This document shows positions 31,782 through 48,567 of a stretch of 60,298 bases of DNA, in pieces. The DNA lies in the NCBI GenBank assembly GCA_027013815.1, contig JALWFY010000021.1, positions 1 through 60,298 of the forward strand, read 5' to 3'. Within the stretch, counting starts at the first letter, position 1, and each line of letters opens with the position of its first letter. Under the pieces are notes generated by a model, which saw only the letters and a list, made by a program, of their open reading frames with translations, searched no databases and was not told the DNA's origin. Source of the DNA: Desulfohalobiaceae bacterium (lineage in GTDB: Bacteria > Desulfobacterota > Desulfovibrionia > Desulfovibrionales > Desulfothermaceae). The translations under genes and the position numbers were made by a program.

Positions 31782-34508
31782 ATGAAAAAGTTATACAAAT
31801 TTTTATTTCTGACTATTATAGTCTTTTTACCGTCATTGTCTATTGCCAATATAACTGTGATTGGAGGAAAGGGTTATGCCCCTTATTACTTTTTGGGCCA
31901 TAATGGCAAGATCAGGGGGATATTGGTAGATATTTGGAAAGTATGGGAAAGACATACAGGGATTAAGGTAAATTTTGAAATAGCAAGATGGTATGATGCG
32001 CAAAAAAAGGTAAAAAAAGGGGAAGCAGATGTTATTATAGGGATGTTTTATAGTGATGAGCGGGCAAAATGGTTTGATTTTTCTATGCCGTTTCTGACCA
32101 TAGATGGGTGTATTTTTTTTCATAAATCAATATCAGGTCTAAAAGGACCTGAAGACCTTGCGGGTTTTCACGTTGGAGTGCTTCAAGGGGATTATGCAGA
32201 GACCTTTTTTAAAAAGAATTATCCCAAGGTGAGATTAGTTCTATATCCTACATATGAGGATATGGTAAAACATGCCATAAAAGGGGAAATTAAGGTCTTT
32301 GTAGGAGATAGACCTGCGCTCCTTTTTTATCTTGCCAAGTTCAAACAAGGAGTAGAGTTTAGATATATAAAAAAGCCTTTGTATTCTTTAGAGGTTAGAG
32401 CTGCAGTTAAAAAAGGCAATAAAAAGTTATTGTCATTAGTAAATAAGGGATTTGAACAAATTAAAGGATCTGAAATAAAAGGGATATTGGACAAATGGAG
32501 CGGGGTTAGTATTTTATCAAGGGCCTATTCTTTTTTTTATGTAATACTAGTTGTATTAGTTATAACTTGTGTTGCTACATTTTTATGGATATATAGTTTG
32601 AGAAAATTAGTTGCCAGGAAAACAAGGGAACTAGAAGAGGCCTATAATATTTTAAACAGTGTCATAAATAATACTAATATTGGTTTTATGGTAAGGGATA
32701 TAAAAGGCAGGATCCTTAAAACTAATAAGATTTATTTAGATATTGTTGGAGAAAACGATCCCCAAGAAATAATAGGAAGACACATAAGAGAATTTATATA
32801 TGATGATATAGATGTTCAGCAAGATGTTTTAAAGGAATTAAAAGAAAAAGGCCATATAAAAGGGATAGAATATACTTATAAAAGGAAAGATGGTGTAGTT
32901 TTTTATTTATTATTAAATGCGGTGTTTTTAAAAAAACAAGGGAAAATTGTTTTTTTGTTACATGATATTACTAAAAGAGTGGAACAGGAATTTACAATAC
33001 AGAGATTGGCCAATCGGTTAGATGTGACCTTGGAATCAATAGGAGACGGGGTTATTTCAACTGATGTTCATGGTAGGATAGAATTCTTTAACAGTGTTGC
33101 AGAAAGACTCACTGGATGGACAAAAAAAGAGGCAATAGGGAAAAAATTAGAACAAGTATTCAATATTATTTCAGAAAAAACAAGAGCACCTGTAGTTAAT
33201 CCACATAAAAGAGTGATGGATACAGGTCAAATTGTAGGGATTGGGAATCATACTTTGCTTGTTAGAAAAAATGGAGAGCACCTTCCTATATTGGATAGTG
33301 GAGCACCTATTAAGGATAAACAAGGAAATATTATAGGGGTTGTCATTGTATTTAGAGATGGTAGCTCTCAAAAACAAAGGGAAGAGGAACTTATTAAACT
33401 TGAACAGTTAAACTCTATAGTGACTTTTTCAGCAGGAATTGCCCATGACTTTAATAATATTTTGGGTTCTATTTTAATGAATTTGTCCATAATAAACATG
33501 AATAAGTCAATCCCAGATAATAATATCAAATACAAACTAAAGTTATTAGAAGATGCTGTACTTCGTGCTAGAGACCTAGTGAAACAATTAGTAATGATAG
33601 CTAAGATAAAAAATCCAGTAAAAGAGTGCTTTAGTTGTAAAGACAGGTTAGAAAAGATTGCTTCATTGGTACTTGCTGGTTCTAATATAGAATTAGAATT
33701 AGATTTGGATAAAGGGCTATGGCCAGTTATAGGAGATAGGGCCCAGTTAGATCAGGTAGTTCAAAATATCTTTATAAATGCAAAGGATGCCATGCCAGGA
33801 GGGGGTAAGATCAAAGTAATAGCTCAAAATACAGAGATAAAAGTACATGAAAAGTTGTCTCCAGGGAGATATGTGAAGATAAAGATTTGTGATCAAGGAG
33901 AGGGAATAAAAAAAGAAAATCTGGAAAAAATATTTGATCCTTATTTTTCCACCAAAAAGGGAGGCACTGGCCTTGGGCTTTTTGTGGTAAAGTCTGTTTT
34001 AGAAAAGCACGATGGTCATGTAGAGGTAGAGAGTGAAGTGCATAAAGGAACTTGCTTTACCCTTTATCTCCCTGCTGGAGAAAGGAAACTCCCGGATGAA
34101 CATAGGGATTTTAAAGGGACAGGAAAAATTAAAGGGAAAAGGATATTGTTTATGGACGATGAAGAGATGTTTAGGTCCCTTATGAAAGAGGTGCTCAAAG
34201 AATTAGGAGCAGAGGTGGTTGTAGTGGAAAATGGAGAACAAGCTGTAGATGAGTATATTCATTCTTTTAAAAATGGAAATAAGTTTCATGTAGTGATCTT
34301 GGACTTGACTGTAGTTGGAGGAATGGGTGGAGATGAGGCAGGTAGAAGAATTATTGAGTTTGATAAGAGTGCCAAGGTCCTAATATCTTCAGGACATAGT
34401 ATTCATCCCTTGATAAAACAATATAAAAAGGCTGGTTTTGCAGGGGCAATTAAAAAACCTTATACCATTCAAGAATTGAGTAGTGTCATAGAGGGTATTT
34501 TGAGTTAA
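31782..34508 (+). CDS. Hybrid sensor histidine kinase with periplasmic solute-binding domain
   Basis: A 908-residue hybrid kinase. It has a signal or membrane segment at residues 4-22 and a family-3 solute-binding domain at about 24-245 (GYAPYYFLGHNGKIRGILVDIW, then IGMFYSDERAKWFDF). A membrane helix lies at about 253-273. Two PAS domains follow at about 290-400 and 410-530. The phosphorylation helix has AGIAHDFNNILGSI (His at about residue 554). The ATPase domain contains DQGEGI and GGTGLGLFVV, and a C-terminal receiver at about 785-905 has MDDEE and VVILDLTV. It probably senses a small organic ligand, such as an amino acid-like compound, in the periplasm. No output regulator is adjacent; the next gene is another kinase. 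Confidence 0.87.
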   Translation: MKKLYKFLFLTIIVFLPSLSIANITVIGGKGYAPYYFLGHNGKIRGILVDIWKVWERHTGIKVNFEIARWYDAQKKVKKGEADVIIGMFYSDERAKWFDFSMPFLTIDGCIFFHKSISGLKGPEDLAGFHVGVLQGDYAETFFKKNYPKVRLVLYPTYEDMVKHAIKGEIKVFVGDRPALLFYLAKFKQGVEFRYIKKPLYSLEVRAAVKKGNKKLLSLVNKGFEQIKGSEIKGILDKWSGVSILSRAYSFFYVILVVLVITCVATFLWIYSLRKLVARKTRELEEAYNILNSVINNTNIGFMVRDIKGRILKTNKIYLDIVGENDPQEIIGRHIREFIYDDIDVQQDVLKELKEKGHIKGIEYTYKRKDGVVFYLLLNAVFLKKQGKIVFLLHDITKRVEQEFTIQRLANRLDVTLESIGDGVISTDVHGRIEFFNSVAERLTGWTKKEAIGKKLEQVFNIISEKTRAPVVNPHKRVMDTGQIVGIGNHTLLVRKNGEHLPILDSGAPIKDKQGNIIGVVIVFRDGSSQKQREEELIKLEQLNSIVTFSAGIAHDFNNILGSILMNLSIINMNKSIPDNNIKYKLKLLEDAVLRARDLVKQLVMIAKIKNPVKECFSCKDRLEKIASLVLAGSNIELELDLDKGLWPVIGDRAQLDQVVQNIFINAKDAMPGGGKIKVIAQNTEIKVHEKLSPGRYVKIKICDQGEGIKKENLEKIFDPYFSTKKGGTGLGLFVVKSVLEKHDGHVEVESEVHKGTCFTLYLPAGERKLPDEHRDFKGTGKIKGKRILFMDDEEMFRSLMKEVLKELGAEVVVVENGEQAVDEYIHSFKNGNKFHVVILDLTVVGGMGGDEAGRRIIEFDKSAKVLISSGHSIHPLIKQYKKAGFAGAIKKPYTIQELSSVIEGILS

Positions 34509-34742: not shown

Positions 34743-36281
34743 TTGAAAGACAATATCATTCGTATAGGGATAGTGGGAGAGGGAGAATTTGCTGCCCAAG
34801 TCCTAGAGACCACAATAAAATACTATTCCAAGACCAAGGACCTCAATGCAAAGATACATGCAGTTGTGTGTGAAGACAAGGATTCTCCTGCAATGAAGGT
34901 AGCAAAAAAGTTTAATAGAAAGGTCTATACCCAAGTGGAAAGGCTATATGATCCCAAAGAAAAAATAGATGTGATTGTGATACTAGATGAATCTCCTGCA
35001 AGATTTGAAGAAATATTGAAATCAAGACCTATTAATATAAGGATAGTTTCATATAAGGTCTTCCGTTTGTTTTGGGATGCATTGAGTACTGAGACAAAGA
35101 AATACAAGAGGCAATTGGAGCAATTGAAAACCATTATTCAAGGGATAGATGAAAATATACTGATAATTTCCCCTGATATGGAGGTTATGGAGGTGAATGA
35201 TGCATGTCTTAAGAGAATGGGCTACTTAAGGGAAGAGGTCATAGGTCAAAAATGTTATAAGGTCTTTCAAAAATCAAATCGTCAATGTTATTATGATGAG
35301 GCCCTATGTCCTTTGCAAATGGCAAAAGAGAAAAAAAAGAGTTGTAAGAGAATAATGCCAAGGATAAATAGTCAAGGAAAAGTTGTATATCTGGAAATAG
35401 GCATATATCCAGTGTTTGATGAAAATGGAGAATTGGTCTATTTTGTGGAGATCAGCAGAGATGTTAGTGACTATATCCATGAACATGATGAGATTTATAA
35501 TCAATTAGAACAATTATTGGAAAAGACCGAAAAAGAGTTAAAACAAAGGGAACAAGAGCTTAGGCATCAGGATAAAATGGCCTCGTTAGGTAAACTTTCT
35601 GCCTCAGTGGTCCATGAGATAAATAATCCCATCTCAGGGATATTAAATCTAGTCCTGCTCATGAGGAGGATTATTGAAGAAGGTCCTGTGACAGATCAAG
35701 ACATAGAATTTTTTCAAAGGAATTTAAATCTAATGGAAGGAGAGATAAGGCGCATTAGCAGGATTACCTCAAATCTCCTTACTTTTTCTAAGGGTAGAAA
35801 AACAGAGTTTACTAAGGTAAATGTCAATGAAGTAATAAATGAAGTCCTTTTCCTTTGTTCTAATATGTTGAAGATTAATAAGATAAATGTAAAAAAACGA
35901 CTTTCCTCTAACCTCCCAGACATAGTTGCTGATGGGGAGCAACTAAAACAGGTTATTATAAATTTAGTATCAAATGCAATTGAGGCAATGGAGGGTCAGT
36001 CCTATAAAGAGATCAGTATAACTACTGAGGAAAAAGGTCCTTTTGTCAAAATATTACTTAAGGATAATGGGCCAGGGATTGGAGAAGAAGTCAAGGACAG
36101 GATCTTTGAACCATTTTTTACTACAAAAAAGAAGGGCAAAGGGGTTGGACTTGGACTTTCTGTGGTATATGGGATTATAAAAAGGCATTCTGGTTTCATA
36201 GAGGTATCCAGTAAACAAGGAATGGGTACCCAGTTTATAATCACCCTTCCCTTAACTCAGGCAAAGGAGAAGTATGAATAA
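34743..36281 (+). CDS. Cytoplasmic PAS histidine kinase with Rossmann-like N-terminal domain
   Basis: A 512-residue kinase without membrane helices. The N-terminal 105 residues (IRIGIVGEGEFAAQVLE, then DVIVILDE) look like a nucleotide-binding or TrkA-N-type Rossmann fold. A PAS domain at about 125-245 carries a cysteine cluster (GQKCYKVF, RQCYY, ALCPL, KSCKR). A short coiled coil at about 250-280 precedes the phosphorylation helix LGKLSASVVHEINNPISG, and the ATPase domain has DNGPGI and GVGLGLSVVYG. A dinucleotide or redox input is an attractive inference. It overlaps the NtrC-type regulator by 8 bases, making a pair. The start is TTG with GGGGG upstream. Confidence 0.82.
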   Translation: MKDNIIRIGIVGEGEFAAQVLETTIKYYSKTKDLNAKIHAVVCEDKDSPAMKVAKKFNRKVYTQVERLYDPKEKIDVIVILDESPARFEEILKSRPINIRIVSYKVFRLFWDALSTETKKYKRQLEQLKTIIQGIDENILIISPDMEVMEVNDACLKRMGYLREEVIGQKCYKVFQKSNRQCYYDEALCPLQMAKEKKKSCKRIMPRINSQGKVVYLEIGIYPVFDENGELVYFVEISRDVSDYIHEHDEIYNQLEQLLEKTEKELKQREQELRHQDKMASLGKLSASVVHEINNPISGILNLVLLMRRIIEEGPVTDQDIEFFQRNLNLMEGEIRRISRITSNLLTFSKGRKTEFTKVNVNEVINEVLFLCSNMLKINKINVKKRLSSNLPDIVADGEQLKQVIINLVSNAIEAMEGQSYKEISITTEEKGPFVKILLKDNGPGIGEEVKDRIFEPFFTTKKKGKGVGLGLSVVYGIIKRHSGFIEVSSKQGMGTQFIITLPLTQAKEKYE

Positions 36282-37650
36282 AACAATGGAAAATAAAACT
36301 TGTGCTAGGATCTTAATAGTGGATGATGAGCTAATCATAAGGGAGTCTCTCGCTGGTTGGCTCAAAAGGGATGGCTATTCTATAGTTACTGTTGAAAGTG
36401 GAGAAAAGGCCCTAGAGATTATATCTAAGGAGTCATTTGACCTTGTTTTTTTAGACATAAAACTAGAGGGAATAGATGGGATAGAGACCCTTTCAAAGAT
36501 AAGAGAAATAGTGCCTGAAATGCCAGTTGTCATGATAACTGCTTATGGATCAATTAACACTGCTGTAGAAGCCATGAAAAAAGGGGCGGTGGATTATCTC
36601 CTAAAACCCTTTGAGCCTGATGAGCTGAGTCTCCTTATTGAGAAGATCCTTACAAGTAAGGCGCGTGATTTAGAGAACTTGTACTTAAAAGAGACCATCA
36701 AGGACAGGATTAGATTTGATAGATTGATAGCCCAGTCAAAAAACATGCAAGGGGTCTTTGATTTAATAAAAAGGGTTGCTCCCTTAGAGTGTACAGTGCT
36801 TATTACAGGGGAAACAGGGACTGGAAAAGAACTAGTAGCCAGGGCGATCCATTCCCATAGCCAGAGGAGAGAGGGACCATTTGTGGCCATTAACTGTGGA
36901 GCCTTCCCTGAACAACTTATGGAAAGTGAGATATTTGGCCATGAGAGGGGGGCATTTACAGATGCAAAGGAGCAGAGGAGGGGAAAATTAGAACTGGCAA
37001 ATGGCGGTACCATATTTTTGGATGAAGTAGGGGAACTTTCTTTTAAGATGCAGGTCAATTTCCTCAGGGTATTAGAGGAAAAACTGTTTTACAGGGTTGG
37101 GGGCTCTAGACCCATTTCCTTAGATTGTCGTGTAATTGCTGCCACAAATAGGGATTTAAAAAAGGCTATAAGGGAAGGGATTTTTAGGGAAGATCTATTT
37201 TATAGACTAAATGTATTTTCAATACATCTTCCTCCCTTGAGGGAGCGAAAAGAAGATATCCCTCTACTTGCAAGACATTTTTTAATGAAATTTAGTAAAG
37301 AGACCAACAAACACGTAGAGAATATCTCAAGGGATGCCTTAGACCTAATGATGATATATGATTGGCCTGGTAACGTAAGAGAACTCAAGAATGCCATAGA
37401 AAGGGCAGTAGTTATTTGCAGAGGGAGTCAAATAAGACCACAAGACCTTCCAATATCTGTAGGTGAATCTAATAAAAGGGAAGGGCCAGATGGATCAACA
37501 AAACTCTTGCCCCTTAAGGAAATTGAAAAAAGATATATAAAACAGGTCTTAGATGATACCAATTGGAACATATCTCTATCTTCCAAGGTATTAGGTATTG
37601 ATAGATCTACGCTTTATAAAAAAATAAAAAAATATAATTTAAAGCATTAA
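36274..37650 (+). CDS. NtrC-type sigma-54 response regulator
   Basis: A 458-residue regulator with three domains. The receiver (VDDE, LVFLDIKL, YLLKPFE) is at about 12-130. The AAA+ domain at about 155-395 has Walker A GETGTGKE, the sigma-54 loop written GAFTDA rather than GAFTGA, and IFLDEVGELS. A Fis-type helix-turn-helix ends the protein (NISLSSKVLGIDRSTLYKK). The G-to-D change in the GAFTGA loop is a recognised natural variant but is worth noting. It is coupled to the kinase upstream and followed after 3 bases by the archaemetzincin gene. A sigma-54 promoter at 40272-40287 is its likely target. Confidence 0.9.
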   Translation: MNKTMENKTCARILIVDDELIIRESLAGWLKRDGYSIVTVESGEKALEIISKESFDLVFLDIKLEGIDGIETLSKIREIVPEMPVVMITAYGSINTAVEAMKKGAVDYLLKPFEPDELSLLIEKILTSKARDLENLYLKETIKDRIRFDRLIAQSKNMQGVFDLIKRVAPLECTVLITGETGTGKELVARAIHSHSQRREGPFVAINCGAFPEQLMESEIFGHERGAFTDAKEQRRGKLELANGGTIFLDEVGELSFKMQVNFLRVLEEKLFYRVGGSRPISLDCRVIAATNRDLKKAIREGIFREDLFYRLNVFSIHLPPLRERKEDIPLLARHFLMKFSKETNKHVENISRDALDLMMIYDWPGNVRELKNAIERAVVICRGSQIRPQDLPISVGESNKREGPDGSTKLLPLKEIEKRYIKQVLDDTNWNISLSSKVLGIDRSTLYKKIKKYNLKH

Positions 37651-37653
37651 TTA

Positions 37654-38199
37654 ATGGAAAAGATCCCCTCACCATGTATTGGGATAAATCCCATAAAGTT
37701 AAAAGATAGTAGTTTTTTACAAGGCCTTTTAAAAGAGATAAAAAATTCCCTGGGAGTACAGACTAAAATAATAACTGTTTTAAATGACATTGAATTTGCA
37801 TATCACGAGGGTAGGGGACAATATTATTCCACTAGGATTTTAGAAGAACTAAATAGACTTACTCCTGATAAATATCTTAGGGTGTTGGCTATAACTGACA
37901 AAGATCTATTTATTCCGATCCTTACCTATGTGTATGGAGAGGCCCAATTAGATGGGAGGGCAGCTATAATATCTACTAATAGATTAATGCCGCAAAATAG
38001 GTCTCCTAAGGAATTGATGAAGTTTTCCTCCAGGATAATCAAAGAGGCCCTCCATGAGTTAGGTCATACCTTTGGCCTTACCCATTGTAGGGATAAAAGG
38101 TGTATTATGCATTATTGTCGAACCTTAAGAGAAGTTGACGAAAAACAAACTAAATTTTGTTTTTTTTGTGAGACCCTGCTCATGGACAAGTTGAAATAA
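37654..38199 (+). CDS. amzA: Archaemetzincin-like zinc metalloprotease
   Basis: A 181-residue protein with the complete archaemetzincin signature in its last 60 residues: HELGHTFGLTHC (catalytic Glu and three His zinc ligands), then a CxxxCxMHYC run, and CFFC near the end giving the second, structural zinc site. Such proteins are presumed zinc peptidases with unknown substrates. It is translationally linked to the NtrC-type regulator (3-base gap). Sitting between a sigma-54 system and the GcvH-like genes suggests it belongs to that regulon. Convergent with the gene ending at 38205. Confidence 0.9.
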   Translation: MEKIPSPCIGINPIKLKDSSFLQGLLKEIKNSLGVQTKIITVLNDIEFAYHEGRGQYYSTRILEELNRLTPDKYLRVLAITDKDLFIPILTYVYGEAQLDGRAAIISTNRLMPQNRSPKELMKFSSRIIKEALHELGHTFGLTHCRDKRCIMHYCRTLREVDEKQTKFCFFCETLLMDKLK

Positions 38200-38204
38200 A
38201 GAGA

Positions 38205-39131
38205 TCATTTATTCTTTAAAAATTTTTTACAAAAGTGTTTCCAATCAAGCCCTGGAATATTATCAAATATATTTTCTATAATGTCCCCACCATCAGCGCA
38301 AATTGGTCCACATATGTTTTCTATCTCTTGAAATAAAGAATCCATTTCCAAGGAAATAAAACTTGAGACTTGCTCATCTATCATGAGATTTTTTAGGTCT
38401 TGAACTATATTTTCTGTCTGGGCCTTGACTATCCATCCATCTGAATATGGGTCCTTTTGATTATAATTCCCTTCCCAAATATTGGGATTCACCTCTATAA
38501 CTATGCCATCTACAGGGGATAATATAGTGGCATGTTTGTCATGTTTTTTTAAGACAATATTTCCCTCTCCTTTTTTTATCCTTTTACCTATAACTGGGGG
38601 GATAATTTCATCAAATGGTCCAAAAAATTTGATTACAAAATGGTCTAAGCCTATAAATACAGTAGAATCTTCACCTGGTTTTATCCAGGAGTGATAAGGA
38701 GATAAATAATATCCATATGGAAAATCAATAGATTTAATCTTCATATGTTCCACTGGCTTTATCTGGGTAAATACTGAAAAGACATCTTCAAAATATTGAT
38801 TGAACTCGCACCTCACACAATCATATTTATTTATACAACTCTTAAAGCCAATTTTGTGTTTCATAGAATGGATGCATGGTCTTTTGTTGGGGGGTAATTT
38901 TAAGAGCTTCTCCTTCCAATGAACTATCCTTGCTCGTTTGTTTAGGGGTATCTCTCCCATTTTTTTTAATTTTTTGTTTTCATTTGCAACCTTACTCAAC
39001 ACCTTGTCAAAAGTGCATGTATAACAGTCAAAATTTTTATAACAATACTTTTTTTCTACAACCCCTGCCTGCATCCATATACACCTGGTCTTGTTTTTGC
39101 CTGTCTTTTCCTGGATATTCATGATTTTCAC
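38205..39131 (-). CDS. GcvH-like protein with Cys-rich N-terminal repeats (copy 2)
   Basis: A 308-residue paralogue of the upstream neighbour. The first about 120 residues hold two cysteine repeats of the form C...C-x(4)-DC-x2-C (CIWMQAGVVEKKYC then FDCYTC; CIHSMKHKIGFKSC then YDCVRC), a probable FeS or zinc site. Residues about 150-250 look like a GcvH/lipoyl-type hammerhead (GLDHFVIKFFGPFDEIIPP, then ILSPVDGIVIEVNPNIW, then DPYSDGWI). The lipoyl-lysine motif ESVKA of true GcvH is not present at the expected place. The C-terminal region contains CGPICADGGD. Function is unknown; true glycine cleavage is unlikely because no gcvT or gcvP is present. Confidence 0.75.
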   Translation of the reverse strand: MKIMNIQEKTGKNKTRCIWMQAGVVEKKYCYKNFDCYTCTFDKVLSKVANENKKLKKMGEIPLNKRARIVHWKEKLLKLPPNKRPCIHSMKHKIGFKSCINKYDCVRCEFNQYFEDVFSVFTQIKPVEHMKIKSIDFPYGYYLSPYHSWIKPGEDSTVFIGLDHFVIKFFGPFDEIIPPVIGKRIKKGEGNIVLKKHDKHATILSPVDGIVIEVNPNIWEGNYNQKDPYSDGWIVKAQTENIVQDLKNLMIDEQVSSFISLEMDSLFQEIENICGPICADGGDIIENIFDNIPGLDWKHFCKKFLKNK

Positions 39132-39189
39132 CCTTGGATGTATTTTTTATGAAAAAAAGGGGAGTTATCCCCCCCCTTTATCTATGGCC

Positions 39190-40185
39190 TTATGTTTTTA
39201 AAAATGTCTTGGTGAGGTTGGTCCACCCTAGCTCTGGTAGATTGTCATATATGTTGCCAGCAAATAAACCACCATCTGCAGCCAAAGGACCAGCTACTTG
39301 TTCTACCATGTTCTCAAGTGTTGACACCTCTTGTTTTAACCAGGACATACTCTTGTTGTCGTCCATTAACTTGTTTAAACTAGCACCTATATCATTGGTT
39401 CTGATTAAAAATAGCCATCCATCTTCATATGGACTCCTATTTGCAGTTGTGGGATTTTCCCATATCCTGTGGTTCACCTCTACAATAATCCCCCCTGCTG
39501 GTGAGAGCACATCTGCCTCTCTGCCTTTTTTCTTGATGCCCCAACCAGGTGTCTCAGGGTCTAGTACTTTACCCATTAGTGGTAGTTCAAATTTTTCCAT
39601 TTCCCCAAGGAGTTTTAGGGAGAAATCGTCCATCCCAATCCTGATGAATCCGCCACTCTCAATCCTTGCCCAGGTATGACCGTTGTGAAAATAATATCCC
39701 ATTGGTATGTCAAATCCCTTGATATTATAGACCTCTTCTGCCCTGCTGCTGTACTTTGTGGCTATTATATCTTCAAAATACTGGTCAAAATCACATGTAC
39801 CACAATTATAATTATATGCACATAACCTGTATGGGATCCTCTTTGTCAAGGTATGCCTGCATACTCTATCTTTGTCAGGAAGCCTCCTCATGGCATCCTG
39901 CCAACTCAATATCTTTCCCTGTTTTGCCTTTTTCATCATGGCCTTGTCATAATTACACGTAGTACAATCATAGAAATTAGTGCAACTCTTACGTTTTACA
40001 ACCCCTGCCTGCATCCATATACAAGGATTTTTTAACTTTTCCTCTTTGTCTGGTTTGACCTTCCATATTTGTCCCCCCAAAACTACATCTATACCCCTTT
40101 CTGTTTCACCAGTGAGAGCACTTACTTTTTCAAAAGTAGAACCGTACCCTGTCCAAATATTTTTCTTGTCTGCCCTAATACCCAT
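39190..40185 (-). CDS. GcvH-like protein with Cys-rich N-terminal repeats (copy 1)
   Basis: A 331-residue protein, first gene of a two-gene operon with its paralogue. After about 50 residues come two cysteine repeats (CIWMQAGVVKRKSC then YDCTTC; CRHTLTKRIPYRLC then YNCGTC), a putative metal centre. The GcvH-like domain spans about 170-280, with RIGMDDFSLKLLG, DVLSPAGGIIVEVNHRIW and SPYEDGWLFLI. Lysines in GIKKKGREAD lie near, but not exactly at, the lipoylation position. The C-terminus contains GPLAADGG. The sigma-54 promoter upstream and the neighbouring Hdr operon suggest a redox or carrier role. In sulfur oxidisers lipoate-binding GcvH relatives work with Hdr-like complexes, which is only an analogy here. 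Confidence 0.75.
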   Translation of the reverse strand: MGIRADKKNIWTGYGSTFEKVSALTGETERGIDVVLGGQIWKVKPDKEEKLKNPCIWMQAGVVKRKSCTNFYDCTTCNYDKAMMKKAKQGKILSWQDAMRRLPDKDRVCRHTLTKRIPYRLCAYNYNCGTCDFDQYFEDIIATKYSSRAEEVYNIKGFDIPMGYYFHNGHTWARIESGGFIRIGMDDFSLKLLGEMEKFELPLMGKVLDPETPGWGIKKKGREADVLSPAGGIIVEVNHRIWENPTTANRSPYEDGWLFLIRTNDIGASLNKLMDDNKSMSWLKQEVSTLENMVEQVAGPLAADGGLFAGNIYDNLPELGWTNLTKTFLKT

Positions 40186-40271
40186 AATTCCCTCCTATTT
40201 TTCTTTTTATTATTCTTAATATCTTTAAGAATTTTTTTCTAACTCCTATTTACTCTTTGTACTTAACCTAA

Positions 40272-40287
40272 AGCAAGTGGCGTGCCG
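40272..40287 (-). promoter_or_regulatory. Sigma-54 promoter for the GcvH-like operon
   Basis: On the minus strand CGGCACG-CCAC-TTGCT matches the consensus TGGCACG-N4-TTGCW at all core positions, with correct spacing. Transcription would start near 40260, giving a leader of about 75 bases before the ATG at 40185. The nearest candidate activator is the NtrC-type regulator encoded at 36274-37650. Confidence 0.85.
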
Positions 40288-40322
40288 TTTTTTTATCATT
40301 ATAAAAATATAAATAATTTCAA

Positions 40323-40391
40323 TATGTTCTATTAACATACAATTTTTTATAAAATAAAATTTTGAGTTAGCTATGTTGAGAAAATCAACAT
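40323..40391. promoter_or_regulatory. Two dyads in the hdrA/GcvH divergent control region
   Basis: TATGTT-N5-AACATA at 40323-40339 and ATGTTGA-N5-TCAACAT at 40373-40391 share the ATGTT/AACAT half-site. They lie 35 to 105 bases upstream of the sigma-54 -24 element, a normal enhancer position, and could equally serve hdrA. Which protein binds them is unknown. Confidence 0.45.
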
Positions 40392-40502
40392 TTGTTATTA
40401 AAAAAACATAGTAAATTATAAAAAGTTCTTAAATATTAACGAGATATATAAATAATCTCTTTTCTCTACACCTGTAGTATTTTTCCACAAGGTTTGTTTA
40501 GC

Positions 40503-40534
40503 CTTGGGCATGGATTTCCAGCCCAAGTTTTTCT
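40503..40534 (+). terminator. Intrinsic terminator-like hairpin in the hdrA leader
   Basis: CTTGGGC (40503-40509) pairs with GCCCAAG (40521-40527), with an inner TGGA/TCCA extension, directly followed by TTTTTCT. No gene precedes it on the plus strand, so it would end a short leader transcript about 150 bases before hdrA. This looks like leader attenuation or the end of a small RNA. Confidence 0.65.
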
Positions 40535-40620
40535 AATGCGGTTGACAATAGGTTGTTAATTATTTAGAAGGACTCTATAATTTTAGGAAAATTTATTGGT
40601 TTGATTTAAGGGCAGTTTTT

Positions 40621-40639
40621 TTGTGAAAAAAAATCACAA
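40621..40639. promoter_or_regulatory. TTGTGA-A7-TCACAA dyad ahead of hdrA
   Basis: Half-sites TTGTGA and TCACAA, 7 bases apart, 43 bases before the hdrA start. The half-sites resemble Rex (NADH-sensing) and CRP/FNR operators, but both of those use a 6-base spacer, so the assignment is tentative. Confidence 0.4.
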
Positions 40640-40681
40640 AAAAGCTACAAGAAAAGACGATCAAGGGATAAGGAGAACAAT

Positions 40682-43600
40682 ATGGAAACTAAACTTAGTC
40701 CATCCAGCAAGAATGGTTCTGTTCTGGTGGTTGGAGGGGGTATTGCCGGGATGCAGGCAGCCCTTGATTTGGCTGATTCTGGATTTAAGGTCCATGTGGT
40801 GGAGAAGAGTACTGGTGTTGGTGGTGTCATGTCTGAATTAGACAAGACCTTTCCCACCAATGACTGTGCCATGTGAATTATCTCTCCCAAGCTGGTCGAG
40901 TTCGGCCGCCATCCAAATATCAATATTATTACCAAGGCCAAGGTCCAAGAAATCAATGGTTCTGTAGGTAATTTTAAGGTCAAGGTGGAAAAATCCCCCA
41001 GATACATTGACCTTACCAAATGTACTTCGTGTGGTGAATGTGCAGAGGTTTGTCCAGTAGAGCTCCCAGACGAGTATAATCAAGGGATGTCTTTTAAAAA
41101 GGCCACTTCAAAGAAATATGCCCAGACAGTGCCCAGTGCCTTTGCAATTGAGAAATTAGAACAAAAACCTCCATGTAGGCTCACCTGTCCTGCAGGGATA
41201 AATGTCCAGGGCTATGTGCAGATGGTGAAAAAGGGAAAGTATAAAGAGGCATTGGAAATTATTATGGAGCAGCTTCCCCTACCAGGTGTTTTAGGCAGGA
41301 TCTGCCCTGCTGGGTGTGAAGGTGCCTGTAGGAGAAAGGACTTAGATTCTCCAATTGCAATTAGGGCATTAAAAAGGCTTGCAGCAGACAAGTTTGATCC
41401 ACGGGAAGTAGAGATTGAGTGTGCCCCTGAAAGGAATGAGAAGGTGGCAATAATTGGATCAGGTCCCGCGGGGCTTTCATGTGCATACCATCTGGCCAGA
41501 AAGGGAATAAAGTCCACTATCTTTGAGGCCCTGCCAAAGCCTGGTGGAATGCTAAGGGTTGGAATTCCAGAGCACAGGCTCCCCAGGGATGTATTAGATA
41601 GGGAAATAGAGGTAATCACCAATTTAGGTGTTGAGATCAAGACCAACACTAGATTGGGTAAAGATTTTCAACTAGATGATTTATTTAAAGAGGGTTATAA
41701 AGCAGTATTTTTGGCAATTGGTGCCCATAAGGGAATCACCCTTGGAATCCCAGGAGAAAAGGCCGAGGGCGTAAGGCAAGGCGTAGATTATTTAAGGGAA
41801 GTGAATTTAGAAGGGAAGTCCAAGACAGGCAAGAAAGTGGCAGTTATAGGTGGTGGAAATGTGGCAATAGACGTCGCAAGGGCTGCGATTAGGCTTGGGG
41901 CAGAGGAAGTTACCATTGTATATAGAAGGACTGAGAAAGAGATGCCTGCCTTAGATGAAGAAGTCCATGCTGCCAAGGAAGAGGGTGTGAAATTTGTATT
42001 TTTGGCAGCACCCCAAGAGGTATTAGTAGAAGATGGGAAGGTTGCTGGTCTTCGTTGCATAAAGATGGAACTTGGTGAGCCTGACTCATCAGGTAGGAGG
42101 CGCCCAATACCAGTACCTGAGAGTGAATTTGACATGGATGTAGATCAGGTAATAGCTGCAATAGGACAACGTCCAGATATTTCAGTACTAGAAAATGTAT
42201 CTGGTCTGGAATTTACTAGGTGGTCCACTATAGAGACAAATTCCATTTCTTATGCTACCAATAGAGAAGGTATATTTGCTGGTGGTGATGCCCAGAGCGG
42301 TCCATGGATTGCCATAGGTGCCATAGCTGCTGGAAAGGAAGTAGCAATTTCCATAGAGAGGTATTTAAATGGAGAGGACCTAGAGGCTGGAAGGGAGCCA
42401 AAGAAGGTAGATGAAGATTTTAAGTATAGACCTATCCCAGAAAATGAAAGCAAGAGGGCTAGGGCTAAGGAAAAAGAGCTTCCAGTAGAACAGAGGAAGG
42501 GTAATTTTAAAGAAGTAGAATTAGGTCTAACTGAAGAAGAAGGCAAGGCAGAGGCTGAGAGATGTTTAAATTGTAGTTATTGTTGTGAGTGTTTTCAGTG
42601 TGTTAAGGCATGTGGAGCTGGTGCAGTGACATTGGAGACCCATGCCCAGAAAAAGGAACAGGAAGAATTAGATGTAGGTGCAGTTATTCTGGCACCAGGA
42701 TTTAGCCCATATAGCCCTAAAGGGCTTGATACCTATGGATTTGGTTTGCTTCCCAATGTGGTCACGTCCATGCAGTTTGAGAGGATACTCTCTGCATCAG
42801 GACCAACAGGTGGCCACTTAGTCAGGCCTTCAGACCACAAGGAGCCAAAAAAGATAGCTTGGTTACAATGTGTGGGTTCAAGGGATATCAATAGATGTGA
42901 GCATGGATATTGTTCTTCAGTATGTTGTATGTATGCAATAAAAGAGGCAGTTATAGCAAAAGAACACGCTGGGGAGGACCTTGCCTGTTCAATTTTTTAT
43001 ATGGACATGAGGACCTATGGAAAGGATTTTGATAGATATTATGAACAGGCAAAGGACAAACATGGAGTGAGGTTTGTAAAATCAAGGATACATACCATCT
43101 ATCCTGCCCGTGATCCTGGGGACTTGATCTTGAAATATTTTGATGAATCTGGCGAGCTAAAAGAAGAGCAGTTTGATATGGTGGTTTTGTCTGTTGGCCT
43201 TGAGACCGCAAAAGAGAGCATTGAGCTTGCTTCTACCCTAGGGGTTGACCTGACCCAGGGCAATTTTTGTAAGACCTCTAGTTTTAGGCCTGTATCTACT
43301 TCAAAAGAAGGTATCTATGTATGTGGTGCATTCCAAGGGCCTAAGGATATACCCCAAGCAGTGGTTGATTCCTCTGCAGCTGCTGCAGCTGCTTCAGAGG
43401 TGTTAAGTGATGTGAGGTTTACTCAGACAGTGGAGATCAAGACACCTCCAGAGAGGAACATAATTGGTGAAGAGCCAAGGATAGGTGTATTTGTGTGTAG
43501 GTGTGGTTCAAACATTGCGGGAGTAGTAGATGTACCTTCAGTAAGGGATTATGCAGCAACACTTCCTTATGTAGTCCATGTGGAAGACAATATGTATACT

Positions 43601-45148
43601 TGTTCTCAAGATACACAAGAGAGAATAACTGAAATAATAAAGGAAAAAGGACTAAATAGGGTTATAGTTGCAGCATGTACCCCAAAGACCCACGAACCCC
43701 TATTTCAAGAGACCCTTATTAATGCTGGGTTAAATAAATATGTTTTTGAAATGGTGAATATCAGGAATCAGGATTCTTGGGTCCATAGATATAATCCTGA
43801 CCTTGCCACAGAAAAGGCCAAGGAACTGGTCAGGATGGCAGTGAATAAGGTGGTATATAAAGAACCACTTCAGGAAATAGAATTAAATATTGATCAACGT
43901 GCACTGGTAATAGGTGGCGGAGTTGCAGGACTTAGTGCTGCTATAAATTTGGCAAAACAAGGGTATGAGACCCATATTATAGAGCGCTCAGGAGAGCTTG
44001 GAGGACAGGCCCGGAAATTGTACAGGACCTGGATGGGTGAGATGGTGCAGGAAGGATTGAATAAGCTAATTCAAGAGGTAGATAGGTTAGATAATCTCCA
44101 TGTGCATTTAAACAGTGAGATAGTAGCAGTAGATGGCTTTGTAGGCAATTTTAAGACCACTATTAAAAACCAGGCAGGAGAAGAGGTCTTAGAACATGGT
44201 GTAACTATTATAGCTACAGGAGGAGCTGAATATCAGCCTTCTGAATATCTCTATGGACAAGACAATAGGGTAAAGACTCATCTGGAACTGGACAAGATGT
44301 TTATACAAGACGATCCAGCCCTAAAAAATGTAAACACTGCTGTGTTTATCCAATGCGTAGGTTCTAGAGAAAAAGATCGGCCATATTGTTCCAGGGTATG
44401 TTGTACCCATTCAATAGAGAGTGCGTTGGAGATCAAGAAGAGGAATCCAGATGCAAAGGTATTTATTCTATATCGAGACATCAGAACCTATGGGGAGAGG
44501 GAATATCTATATACCGAGGCCAGACGTGCAGGTATTATATTTATCCGTTATAATGTTGAAGAAAAGCCAGTTGTTACCAAAGATGGGGATAGCTTAGTTG
44601 TAAAGATAAAGGATCCTATTTCAGGGATTATGCTTGAAATAGAGACAGACCTCCTGACCCTGGCTTCTGCAATTGTTCCATATAAGGATGAGAAGTTGGC
44701 TCAATTCTATAAACTTCCTTTAAATGAAGATGGATTCTTTGTTGAAAAGCACGCAAAACTTGGACCTTCTGAATTTGCAATGGATGGTGTATATCTATGT
44801 GGTCTTGCCCATTATCCAAAGTCTATAGATGAATCTGTTGCCCATGGGCTTGCTGCTGCATCAAGGGCAATTACATTGCTTGCCAAGAAAAAGATTTATT
44901 CTAGTGGTGAGATATCTGTTGTTGATCCAAGGAAATGTGTTGGATGTGGTGTTTGTGTCACAGTATGTCCCTATGCTGCGCCTAGGATAGTGGAAGAAGA
45001 AGGACCAAACCAGGGTAAGGCAGAGATCAATCCTGCCCTGTGTAAGGGTTGTGGTCTGTGTATGGCCTCTTGTAGGTCTGGGGCTATTTCTTTAAAGGGT
45101 ATGGACAATGCCCATATATTTGCCATGTTAGAGGCAATTGCAATATAA
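40682..45148 (+). CDS. hdrA: HdrA-NfnB-HdrA fusion flavoprotein, selenoprotein (UGA at 40874)
   Basis: A 1488-residue FAD/FeS protein when the in-frame UGA at 40874-40876 is read as Sec65, in [20 protein letters not shown], where HdrA has Cys. Order: an HdrA FAD domain ([19 protein letters not shown], residues 14-32) and one ferredoxin motif [12 protein letters not shown] near 112. An inserted NfnB/GltD-like module at about 160-620 has [15 protein letters not shown], a second FAD motif [15 protein letters not shown] and the NAD(P) motif [19 protein letters not shown]. The HdrA remainder follows, then a second HdrA unit from about 933 ([28 protein letters not shown]), lacking the Sec/Cys loop. 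Two ferredoxin clusters close it, near 1419 ([12 protein letters not shown]) and 1453. It probably bifurcates electrons between NAD(P)H, ferredoxin and partner subunits. First gene of the MvhD-FlxCBA operon. Confidence 0.9.
40874..40905 (+). promoter_or_regulatory. Selenocysteine UGA with SECIS-like hairpin in hdrA
   Basis: After the UGA, CC-AA-G-CT (40887-40893) pairs imperfectly with AG-TT-C-GG (40899-40905), leaving an apical loop GGTCG. The loop begins 17 bases after the UGA and its GGTC core equals that of the E. coli fdhF SECIS loop. The stem is weaker than in the other two selenoprotein genes. Confidence 0.6.
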
Positions 45149-45704: not shown

Positions 45705-46664
45705 ATGTTAGTTGAATATACAAAACAAATTCAGGAGGCGGCTAAACGCCTTTTAAAAGAAAAAAAAGTAGATTGTGTCTTGGGTTATAGGCAAGGCACT
45801 ATCCCCCTTGTAGACGCCCCATATTTTGCATATACAGAAGAAGAAGTGGATAATCTTATATGGTCCAGTTTTTGTACAAAAAATCTGGCAAATTTTTTGA
45901 TAAAAAGGACAGATAGGGTTGCAGTAATTGCCCAGGGGTGTGTGAGCAGGAGTATTGTTGGGCTCATTAATGAAAATCAGGTAAAAAGGGAAAACGTATA
46001 TATACTTGGGGTATGGTCTCCTGGAATGGTTGATAGATTCAAGGTCATGGAAAGGGTTGGTGGTAGAGAGATCTTAGAGGCAAAGGAAGAAGGAGACAAG
46101 ATAATAGTAATTGGAGAAGGATTTGAAGAGGTAATTCCCAAAAAAGAGGTGCTTAGACAGAACTGCCTTACCTGTGTACACAGGAATGCGGTTTTATACG
46201 ATGAATTCATAGGAGAAAAGGGTGAAGAGACTGGTGGTGGTAATAGGGATATGGTTGCAGCACCTTGGGAAAAGTTGTCCATTGATGAGAGGTGGGAAAA
46301 GTTCACAGAGACCTTTAAGGATTGTATACGTTGTTATGCGTGTAGAAATGCTTGTCCCCTTTGTTATTGCGCAGAATGTTTTGTAGATGAGTCTAAACCA
46401 CAGTGGTGTGGCAAGACACAGGATGAGGCAGATGTATATACATTTCACATATTGAGGGCTTTTCATTGTGCAGGTAGGTGCGTGGATTGTGGTGCATGTG
46501 AGTCTGCTTGTCCAATGGGCATTAAGATGAGGGTGCTTACCTCTAAGATAGAAAAGGATATTAGGCAAATGTATGATGGATATGAACCAGGTATGGAACT
46601 TGGGGCTGTACCTCCTTTAAGTGTGTATAGGCCAAATGATCCTGAAGAATTTATAACCCCATAA
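45705..46664 (+). CDS. flxC: FlxC-like FeS protein with FrhB-type N-terminus
   Basis: A 319-residue iron-sulfur protein. The N-terminal about 175 residues resemble the F420-hydrogenase/dehydrogenase beta-subunit N-terminal domain (VLGYRQGTIPLVDAPYF, with Cys at VIAQGCVSRS and QNCLTCVHRN). The C-terminal part has two ferredoxin-like clusters, CIRCYACRNACPLCYCAEC near 210 and CAGRCVDCGACESACPMG near 263. It should shuttle electrons between the FlxA flavin/NAD(P)H module and MvhD/HdrA. The gene starts with GGAGG upstream and is followed 14 bases later by flxB. The Flx letter is assigned by gene order and clusters, not by a search. Confidence 0.72.
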   Translation: MLVEYTKQIQEAAKRLLKEKKVDCVLGYRQGTIPLVDAPYFAYTEEEVDNLIWSSFCTKNLANFLIKRTDRVAVIAQGCVSRSIVGLINENQVKRENVYILGVWSPGMVDRFKVMERVGGREILEAKEEGDKIIVIGEGFEEVIPKKEVLRQNCLTCVHRNAVLYDEFIGEKGEETGGGNRDMVAAPWEKLSIDERWEKFTETFKDCIRCYACRNACPLCYCAECFVDESKPQWCGKTQDEADVYTFHILRAFHCAGRCVDCGACESACPMGIKMRVLTSKIEKDIRQMYDGYEPGMELGAVPPLSVYRPNDPEEFITP

Positions 46665-46678
46665 AAAGGAAATAAGCT

Positions 46679-47707
46679 ATGGGATATAAATGCTTAGCAA
46701 AAGATAAGTTTTCTGAGTTAGTTGAAAAGTTTACAAAGGAGCAGGATGTATTTGCTCCAATAGCCCAGGGCTTAGAAGTAAAGTGGTCTTTGATAGATGA
46801 CCCATCAAAGATCCTTTTTGACTTTAAAAATACTTCTATGTCCCCCAAGGGATTGTTTTTTCCACAAACAGAATGTTTATTTGAATTTAATAACAATAAA
46901 GATGCAGAGGACGCCTTTATATTAAAGGAGACATCTCCTCTTGTAAAAAAAAGGACCTTACTCAATATAAGGCCGTGTGATGCCAGGGCATTTTCCATAT
47001 TAGACAAGGTGTTTATGAAAGATGAGGATTCCCTGGATGTTTATTGGAAGGACAAGAGGGATAAGACTATATTGATTGGTCTTGCATGTACTAATCCTTG
47101 TTCTACTTGTTTTTGTACCCAGGTAAATTCTTCTCCATTTGGTGAGGATGGGTTAGATGTCCTTATGATAGATCTTGGAGACAAGGTAGTGTTAAAGGAT
47201 GTAACAGATAAAGGGGAAGAGATACTCAAGGGACTTGAAGATGCCTCAGATGAAGATATAAAAAAGGTAGAGGAGTTAAAAAAAGAGGCAGAAAGCAAGA
47301 TAAATGCCAACCTTTCAATGGACAACATCTTGTCTCGTGAGGTCTTAGAAGTATATGAAGATCCTTTTTGGGACAGGTTATATGAGACCTGTTTAAATTG
47401 TGGTGCATGTACTTTTTATTGTCCTACCTGCCATTGTTTTGATATTCAAGACGAGACAAAGGGTGATTATGGACGGAGGGTCAGAAACTGGGATACGTGT
47501 ATGAGTTGGCTTTTTACCCAGCACGCCTCTGGCCATAACCCTAGAGGGACCAAAAAACACAGGGTAAGACAGAGATTTATGCACAAGTTCAAGTATATGC
47601 CAATAAAATTAGATGGAGATATTGGATGTGTTGGATGTGGTAGGTGTATACAGGTCTGTCCTGTGAATATTGATGTTCGGGACGTAATAAAAAATATGAA
47701 CAAATAA
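46679..47707 (+). CDS. flxB: FlxB-like 4Fe-4S dicluster protein (hydrogenase beta-subunit type)
   Basis: A 342-residue protein like the HyhB/HydB beta subunits of soluble NiFe hydrogenases and FlxB. The N-terminal half carries LLNIRPCDARAFSILDKVF and CTNPCSTCFCTQVNSSPFG near 135. The C-terminal half has two ferredoxin clusters, CLNCGACTFYCPTCHC near 240 and CVGCGRCIQVCPVNIDVRDV near 320. Together with the FlxA-like protein downstream it forms an NAD(P)H-oxidising electron-input module. It is 14 bases both after flxC and before flxA, an operon. Confidence 0.8.
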   Translation: MGYKCLAKDKFSELVEKFTKEQDVFAPIAQGLEVKWSLIDDPSKILFDFKNTSMSPKGLFFPQTECLFEFNNNKDAEDAFILKETSPLVKKRTLLNIRPCDARAFSILDKVFMKDEDSLDVYWKDKRDKTILIGLACTNPCSTCFCTQVNSSPFGEDGLDVLMIDLGDKVVLKDVTDKGEEILKGLEDASDEDIKKVEELKKEAESKINANLSMDNILSREVLEVYEDPFWDRLYETCLNCGACTFYCPTCHCFDIQDETKGDYGRRVRNWDTCMSWLFTQHASGHNPRGTKKHRVRQRFMHKFKYMPIKLDGDIGCVGCGRCIQVCPVNIDVRDVIKNMNK

Positions 47708-47721
47708 AAACAAAAAGTGAG

Positions 47722-48567
47722 ATGGCTATGAAGAACCCATATAAACCATATCCAGTAAGGATAAAGAGGATAGAGATAGCCACAGAAGACAAGAGTCTTC
47801 GGACCTTTGAATTTGAATTTATAAACAAAGAAGATGCAAATAAATTTAATTACATGCCAGGACAATTTGCAGAGCTCAGTATCCCTGGTTATGGTGAATC
47901 CCCAATCGGGATTGCGTCTTCTCCCACAGAGGGCGAGAACCTGTTGTTTACTGTATTTAGAATAGGTAAGGTAACTACCAAGCTCCATTCCATGAGAGAA
48001 GGAGAGGTCATGGGTGTGAGAGGTCCTCTTGGGCATCCCTATCCTTTAGGGGAGTTAGAGGGGAAGAATATAGTTATAATTGCTGGTGGTTATGCAGTAA
48101 CTACCCTTCGCTCTACCATGGTGTGGCTGCTTCATCCTGATAATAGGTCAAGATACGGCAAGATAACCTTTATATATGGTGCCAGGACCCCTGGTCTGCT
48201 TTTGTATCATGATCAGTGGAGACAGTGGCAAAAAAGAGATGATGTGGATTGTTACATAACAATAGATAGAGAAGTAGAAGGATGGGATGGGCTTGTTGGC
48301 TTTGTCCCAACTATTACAGAAAAGGTCTCACCGGACCCGGAGAATTCTGTTGCAATAATATGTGGTCCACCTGTGATGATAAAGTTTACACAGCCTGTAC
48401 TGGATAAACTAGGCTGGAAGGGCGAGCAGATAATCATGAGTTTGGAAAACCGCATGAAATGCGGTATAGGTATATGCGGAAGGTGTAATGTAGGACCGTA
48501 TTATGTGTGTAAAGATGGGCCAGTATTTACAAAGGCTGAATTAGATAGATTGCCAAAAGAATATTAA
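47722..48567 (+). CDS. flxA: FlxA-like FAD/NAD(P)-binding oxidoreductase
   Basis: A 281-residue protein of the ferredoxin-NADP reductase superfamily, like HyhG/HydG gamma subunits and FlxA. An FAD-binding barrel at about 1-110 carries MPGQFAELSIPGYGESPIGI, and an NAD(P)-binding domain at about 115-235 has IVIIAGGYAVTTLRSTMV and VAIICGPPVMIKFT. A C-terminal [2Fe-2S]-type motif, RMKCGIGICGRCNVGPYYVC, lies near 250. It is the point where NAD(P)H would enter the HdrA-MvhD-Flx complex. It is the last gene of the operon, followed by a strong hairpin. Confidence 0.85.
   Translation: MAMKNPYKPYPVRIKRIEIATEDKSLRTFEFEFINKEDANKFNYMPGQFAELSIPGYGESPIGIASSPTEGENLLFTVFRIGKVTTKLHSMREGEVMGVRGPLGHPYPLGELEGKNIVIIAGGYAVTTLRSTMVWLLHPDNRSRYGKITFIYGARTPGLLLYHDQWRQWQKRDDVDCYITIDREVEGWDGLVGFVPTITEKVSPDPENSVAIICGPPVMIKFTQPVLDKLGWKGEQIIMSLENRMKCGIGICGRCNVGPYYVCKDGPVFTKAELDRLPKEY

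Follow-up and report, generated by a model that had tools for sequence, protein, structure and literature searches.

The 60,298-nt stretch of Desulfohalobiaceae DNA analyzed here (the window) carries two tandem, Cys-rich GcvH-like genes beside an operon of Hdr type, and the question is what role such proteins could have next to an electron-transfer complex when their lipoylation site is missing. The original prediction was a carrier or redox-sensor system for an HdrA-Flx complex. The evidence presented below suggests that the two proteins are most likely lipoate-free docking or regulatory subunits of Hdr/Hmc-type complexes, which would be produced when needed and whose turnover might depend on an archaemetzincin.

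Two GcvH-like paralogues and the missing lipoyl lysine

Both predicted genes are real and lie in tandem on the minus strand. GcvH-like protein 1 (gcvA-type, 39190..40185, 331 aa) consists of an N-terminal domain with two four-Cys motifs, a GcvH hammerhead and a C-terminal DGG tail; GcvH-like protein 2 (gcvB-type, 38205..39131, 308 aa) has a GTG start and the same architecture. The Pfam GCV_H family (PF01597) was detected in both proteins (E=1.1e-18 and 1.6e-15, respectively). The predicted structures agree with solved H-proteins and show the hammerhead of the original prediction. AlphaFold2 models were built from 31 orthologues of protein 1 (pLDDT 75.8) and 30 of protein 2 (pLDDT 81.0), with uneven confidence across the Cys domain, and were matched by Foldseek to 1onl with E=2.5e-11 and TM 0.91 for protein 1 and with E=3.5e-11 and TM 0.88 for protein 2.

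Each four-Cys motif has the form C-x12-C-x5-C-x2-C. The motifs comprise C55, C68, C74 and C77 (39955..40023) and C109, C122, C128 and C131 (39793..39861) in protein 1, and C17, C30, C36 and C39 (39015..39083) and C86, C99, C105 and C108 (38808..38876) in protein 2, all on the minus strand. All eight cysteines are invariant in the alignments of 31 protein 1 orthologues (A1) and 30 protein 2 orthologues (A2).

The position of the lipoyl lysine, assigned by phmmer alignment to 1onl and a survey of the lysine column in 337 GcvH domains, is occupied by Gly221 in protein 1 (codon 39523..39525, minus strand) and by Asp198 in protein 2. In contrast, the canonical GcvH of the same genome, encoded elsewhere on a gcvT-gcvH-gcvP contig, retains ESVKA (ESVKAVSE). 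Among the 337 surveyed domains, which include some redundancy, members with the Cys motifs or the tag seldom have lysine at the key site, where D, G, E, K, N and S all occur. Canonical GcvH was separated from all lysine-less members as a distinct clade (FastTree support 0.92), and the motif H-x-x-H-x-W marks 122 of 135 non-canonical representatives. The basic residues near the hairpin of the window paralogues could speak for a covalent carrier with its cofactor on another residue, such as a non-standard hairpin lysine (K218-K220 in protein 1). However, no invariant hairpin lysine was found among the 31 protein 1 orthologues of alignment A1, which together with the variability of the site itself makes such a carrier very unlikely.

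Regulators, sigma-54 promoter and operator

Facing the paralogue operon from the plus strand are the sensor histidine kinase (34743..36281), the NtrC-type sigma-54 activator (36274..37650) and the archaemetzincin (37654..38199) of the original prediction, all three with domains confirmed by Pfam. The activator contains Response_reg, Sigma54_activat (E=1e-71) and HTH_8 domains. The kinase has a weak N-terminal Rossmann-like domain (PF01408, E=0.005, below the cut-off), whose GGG motif is partly conserved, and a PAS domain that holds a conserved Cys in an alignment of 38 sequences; these features would fit redox sensing, proving nothing. Just upstream of the kinase/NtrC pair, another sensor kinase, this one a hybrid with SBP_bac_3 as its sensor domain, is encoded at 31782-34508. 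The archaemetzincin (Peptidase_M54; PF07998, E=5.5e-23; NF033823, 154 bits against a cut-off of 145) has the active site HELGHTFGLTHC. Its full pattern, HELGHTFGLTHC-RDKR-CIM-X16-CFFC, agrees with the consensus HEXXHXXGXXHCX4CXMX17CXXC given in PMC3427221, except for a spacing of 16 instead of 17.

The proposed near-perfect sigma-54 promoter, CGGCACGCCACTTGCT (40272..40287, minus strand), has a GG-N10-GC core and departs from the consensus only at its first base. Using a weighted consensus with a cut-off of at least 18 out of 20.5, we detected such sites upstream of 92% of the gcvA-type genes (0.6% in shuffled sequences) and of 55% of the distant single-copy type (1.6% in shuffled sequences), where the controls were mononucleotide shuffles that keep base composition only. 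Among the cluster gene types scored, the sites were restricted to upstream regions of GcvH-like genes, without enrichment upstream of the kinase, NtrC, archaemetzincin, HdrL (11 cases only) or second paralogue genes.

A previously unnoticed operator dyad, TGTWG-N7-CWACA, was found upstream of the sigma-54 promoter. In the window, it occurs as the perfect dyad TGTTG-N7-CAACA (40374..40390), centered 95 bp upstream of the promoter, and as a second copy with one mismatch, TGTGGAAAAATACTACA on the minus strand (40473..40489). With at most one mismatch, the dyad is present at 31 of 34 loci, compared to 3.2% of shuffles; perfect copies are present at 22 of 34, compared to 0.2%. Most operator centers lie 82-121 or 172-222 bp before the promoter. 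The 45 perfect operators in 1.14 Mb of collected loci were placed upstream of GcvH-like genes in 39 assignments and of kinases in 11, where sites between divergent genes may count twice. We propose that the dyad is bound by the cluster's own NtrC. The paralogue operon thus combines a GG-N10-GC promoter, an AAA+ and Fis activator and an upstream operator, in a genome that encodes RpoN, as is characteristic of sigma-54/NtrC-dependent operons. No Rfam match was found within 37500-41500.

The whole genome contains six perfect operators. A wider regulon was rejected, as the other five have no good sigma-54 partner. Control of HdrL, the kinase, NtrC and amzA by the same type of promoter was likewise rejected, given the lack of sigma-54 enrichment upstream of these genes and of any perfect operator in the 450 nt preceding HdrL or amzA. 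Because HdrL has neither the operator nor the sigma-54 site, the window type lacks strict co-regulation of the subunit with the complex. The GcvH-like proteins are therefore the only clear target of the kinase/NtrC pair in the genome, and the pair accompanies them in most loci. Both facts would suit sensor or feedback proteins that report the redox state of Hdr or Hmc to the kinase and are not needed for turnover. This explanation appears rather improbable, since covalent fusions to HdrC, FlpD and NuoG-like proteins, described below, place the domain inside an enzyme.

Linkage to Hdr-type complexes, fusions and the C-terminal tag

The gene that diverges from the paralogues, originally called HdrA, encodes HdrL (40682..45148, plus strand), a 1488-aa fusion of a GltD-like part to HdrA with selenocysteine in the HdrA motif. 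The divergent orientation was correctly predicted, whereas the start at 40985 was not: it missed the in-frame TGA (40874..40876, plus strand) read as selenocysteine (NDCAMU) and would drop 101 residues. Most HdrL genes at related loci share this TGA, with Cys in its place in L119, L120, L121 and L128, and tRNA-Sec is encoded in the genome; the hairpin predicted in a SECIS search for this TGA was no better than shuffles. The HdrL-Flx-like operon further includes, on the plus strand, an Fe-S/FrhB-like subunit (45705..46664) and a 4Fe-4S (Fer4_22) subunit (46679..47707), both identified by Pfam domain search, and an FAD/NAD(P)-binding, FlxA-like subunit (47722..48567).

A scan of genome contigs yielded 46 loci with related genes, nearly all from Desulfobacterota. 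Kinase, NtrC or archaemetzincin matches were found in 37 of them and a second paralogue in about 44, while many contigs end early. Across 395 genomes of this one phylum, mostly MAGs, the Cys domain was found in 71 and an archaemetzincin in 146. The latter was present in 64 of the 71 genomes with the Cys domain, compared to 82 of the 324 without it (odds ratio 27, uncorrected for the kinship that makes related genomes non-independent), and the two genes lie at most 8 kb apart in 40 of 51 genomes checked. HdrA or HdrL was found near 19 of 30 more distant loci, compared to about 4% expected by a rough estimate, in genomes that encode 4-18 HdrA-type proteins each. The predicted linkage to amzA and HdrA is thus conserved in many families. 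Since gene order varies, this linkage was kept or re-made through rearrangement. Many Desulfobacterales loci (L041:6963-7433 and nine others like it) have a rubrerythrin/ferritin-like gene upstream of the gcvA-type gene, in divergent orientation.

The Hdr part of the neighborhood differs between lineages. Co-directional GcvH-like/HdrC/HdrB/HdrL operons were found at L120 and L121. Several other lineages have no HdrL nearby, or have an Hmc-like NrfD complex as the partner instead. More distant members, some of them membrane-anchored, cluster with a TAT-type Fer4_11 protein, an HmcC-like NrfD, small c-type cytochromes, the kinase, NtrC and archaemetzincin. The association with Hdr anticipated for this locus is therefore supported, but the partner is broader than HdrA-Flx and may be HdrL, HdrABC, MetFV-Hdr or an Hmc-like complex, depending on the lineage. 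At L218, L220 and L227, archaemetzincin/GcvH-like/HmcC-like NrfD clusters adjoin genes for multihaem c-type cytochromes and cytochrome-b-like proteins. Three tandem lysine-less GcvH-like genes lie beside a sulfide:quinone-reductase-like flavoprotein at L160:5512-9800 and, together with a Cys member and a DUF1641 protein, at L154:5103-10110.

Several relatives are fused to electron-transfer proteins. A fusion of the GcvH-like domain to HdrC was found in one genome (L124:1123-2217), and an HdrA-like/Fer4/FlpD/Molydop_binding protein of about 980 aa carries the domain in MetF-MetV-MvhD-Hdr operons (L151:7267-10239, L152:4136 and L153:6604). A NuoG-like Fer2/Fer4 protein is fused to a Cys motif and a GcvH-like domain (L165:4809-6092); adjoining this gene and a NuoE-like gene is a protein with two Cys motifs and no GcvH domain (L165:488-1057). 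The fusions to HdrC and to the Fe-S/FlpD protein support a physical partnership with Hdr.

The fusions also bear on the Cys domains. The eight invariant cysteines of both window paralogues, their association with Hdr-type complexes and the functional precedent of LbpA (PMC6067878) would be compatible with a carrier whose N-terminal four-Cys motifs take the place of lipoate, passing electrons or persulfide sulfur from one Hdr subunit to another. We consider this unlikely. The C-x12-C-x5-C-x2-C spacing resembles a structural metal site, and many relatives, including the HdrC and FlpD fusions, lack the motifs or have them in reduced form. Their absence from such members argues against a central place in the function; the Cys domains are probably a metal-binding add-on. 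What stays constant is a GcvH fold without cofactor, with a DGG tail, found fused to Hdr-type subunits, which makes docking, as an adaptor, the best reading of the domain.

The tails themselves suggest a possible role for the archaemetzincin, whose family has been described as largely unknown in its physiological roles (PMC4681839). The window paralogues carry C-terminal GPLAADGG (protein 1; 39268..39291, minus strand; D304, G305 and G306 invariant in A1) and GPICADGG (protein 2), variants of G-x-TM(A/Q)DGG. This tag occurs near the C-terminus of GcvH-like proteins and of unrelated membrane proteins from kinase/NtrC/archaemetzincin/GcvH-like clusters: NrfD at L156 (8831), L162 (4820) and L166 (2390); lactate-type MFS transporters at L157 (8031), L161, L163 (130) and L188; and single-helix proteins of about 75-92 aa at L172, L175-L178, L191, L195 and L197. 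The DNA pattern of the tag gave 48 matches in 36 of the 395 genomes, compared to about 10 for a reversed control. Of 40 matches of the TM(A/Q/P)(D/N)GG type, 28, from 23 genomes, have an archaemetzincin gene no more than 5 kb away; around the tags at L222 and the G432 locus, no archaemetzincin was detected. A general archaemetzincin mark was rejected, as both tag and module are absent from 19 of 20 archaemetzincin genes sampled in other lineages, indicating that the tag goes with the module. We hypothesize that the archaemetzincin reads the DGG tag. A larger and doubtful proposal is a modular system of anaerobes in which GcvH-like subunits and unrelated membrane proteins are marked by the tag, and the archaemetzincin encoded alongside recognizes or cleaves it, controlled by the kinase/NtrC pair. 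If true, the processing of electron-transfer complexes would be regulated, and bacterial archaemetzincin would have a role for the first time. Literature searches found no paper joining the glycine cleavage system with archaemetzincin.

Proposed role and comparison with known systems

Taken jointly, with a probability of roughly 45%, the paralogues would be lipoate-free, GcvH-fold accessory subunits that dock on an HdrL-type complex, have their own kinase/NtrC/sigma-54 circuit and metal-binding four-Cys domains, and are possibly turned over by the archaemetzincin. The kinase/NtrC pair would switch on both proteins via their own operator and sigma-54 promoter. Rather than carrying lipoate, the GcvH fold would act as a docking module on an Fe-S/flavin complex, and the four-Cys domains could bind a metal, as Zn or Fe-S, and make docking depend on the redox or thiol state. 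The archaemetzincin, produced together with the regulators, may cleave the subunit, either to trim it or to turn it over, and the site could be the C-terminal DGG tail.

This module of lysine-less GcvH-like proteins is apparently widespread and undescribed; a literature search for GcvH, NrfD and Desulfo in combination found no paper. The domain occurs across the phylum, and homology searches match it to GcvH despite the absent lipoate site. As a subunit of HdrL, HdrABC, MetFV or Hmc-like complexes, it would be a missing component, with a dedicated control circuit, of enzymes central to energy conservation in sulfate reducers, and the module could reveal how electron-transfer enzymes are controlled in these and related bacteria. 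The archaemetzincin family gains a specific candidate for a partner and another for a recognition motif, and both can be tested directly.

Among known systems, LbpA, which serves sHdr sulfur oxidation, is similar in that GcvH-fold proteins, often two paralogues, are encoded with Hdr-type genes. However, the lipoyl lysine is strictly conserved in all 95 LbpA members, which have single N- and C-terminal cysteines (PMC6067878), whereas the window proteins have lost the lysine and have two four-Cys motifs, a DGG tail, a sigma-54 circuit and an archaemetzincin. Their partners would be HdrL, HdrABC, MetFV or Hmc-like complexes. An LplA-like lipoate ligase, which belongs to the LbpA type of cluster, was not noticed around the window genes. 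Because the lysine strictly kept in LbpA is missing here, an LbpA-like lipoate carrier, as suggested in the original prediction, was rejected. GcvH itself (PF01597, TIGR00527) shares the hammerhead fold, but the window proteins score only 49.8 and 62.7 bits against the NCBIfam equivalog cut-off of 115.85 and, unlike GcvH, have neither the lysine nor linkage to gcvT/gcvP. NF045810 (GcvH_rel_desulf) is also GcvH-related and found in similar Desulfo-bacteria, yet the window proteins reach 21.6 and 26.8 bits against its cut-off of 150. The window HdrL corresponds to that of Desulfobacterium autotrophicum, a GltD-HdrA fusion with selenocysteine from which the name HdrL derives (PMC2702500). The GcvH-like neighbors and the circuit are additional, and that paper mentions neither GcvH, glycine cleavage nor sigma-54. 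Finally, divergent GcvH-like members occur in Fer4/NrfD/cytochrome clusters resembling the Hmc complex with its HmcC-type NrfD, to which they add a GcvH-like subunit and DGG-tagged tails.
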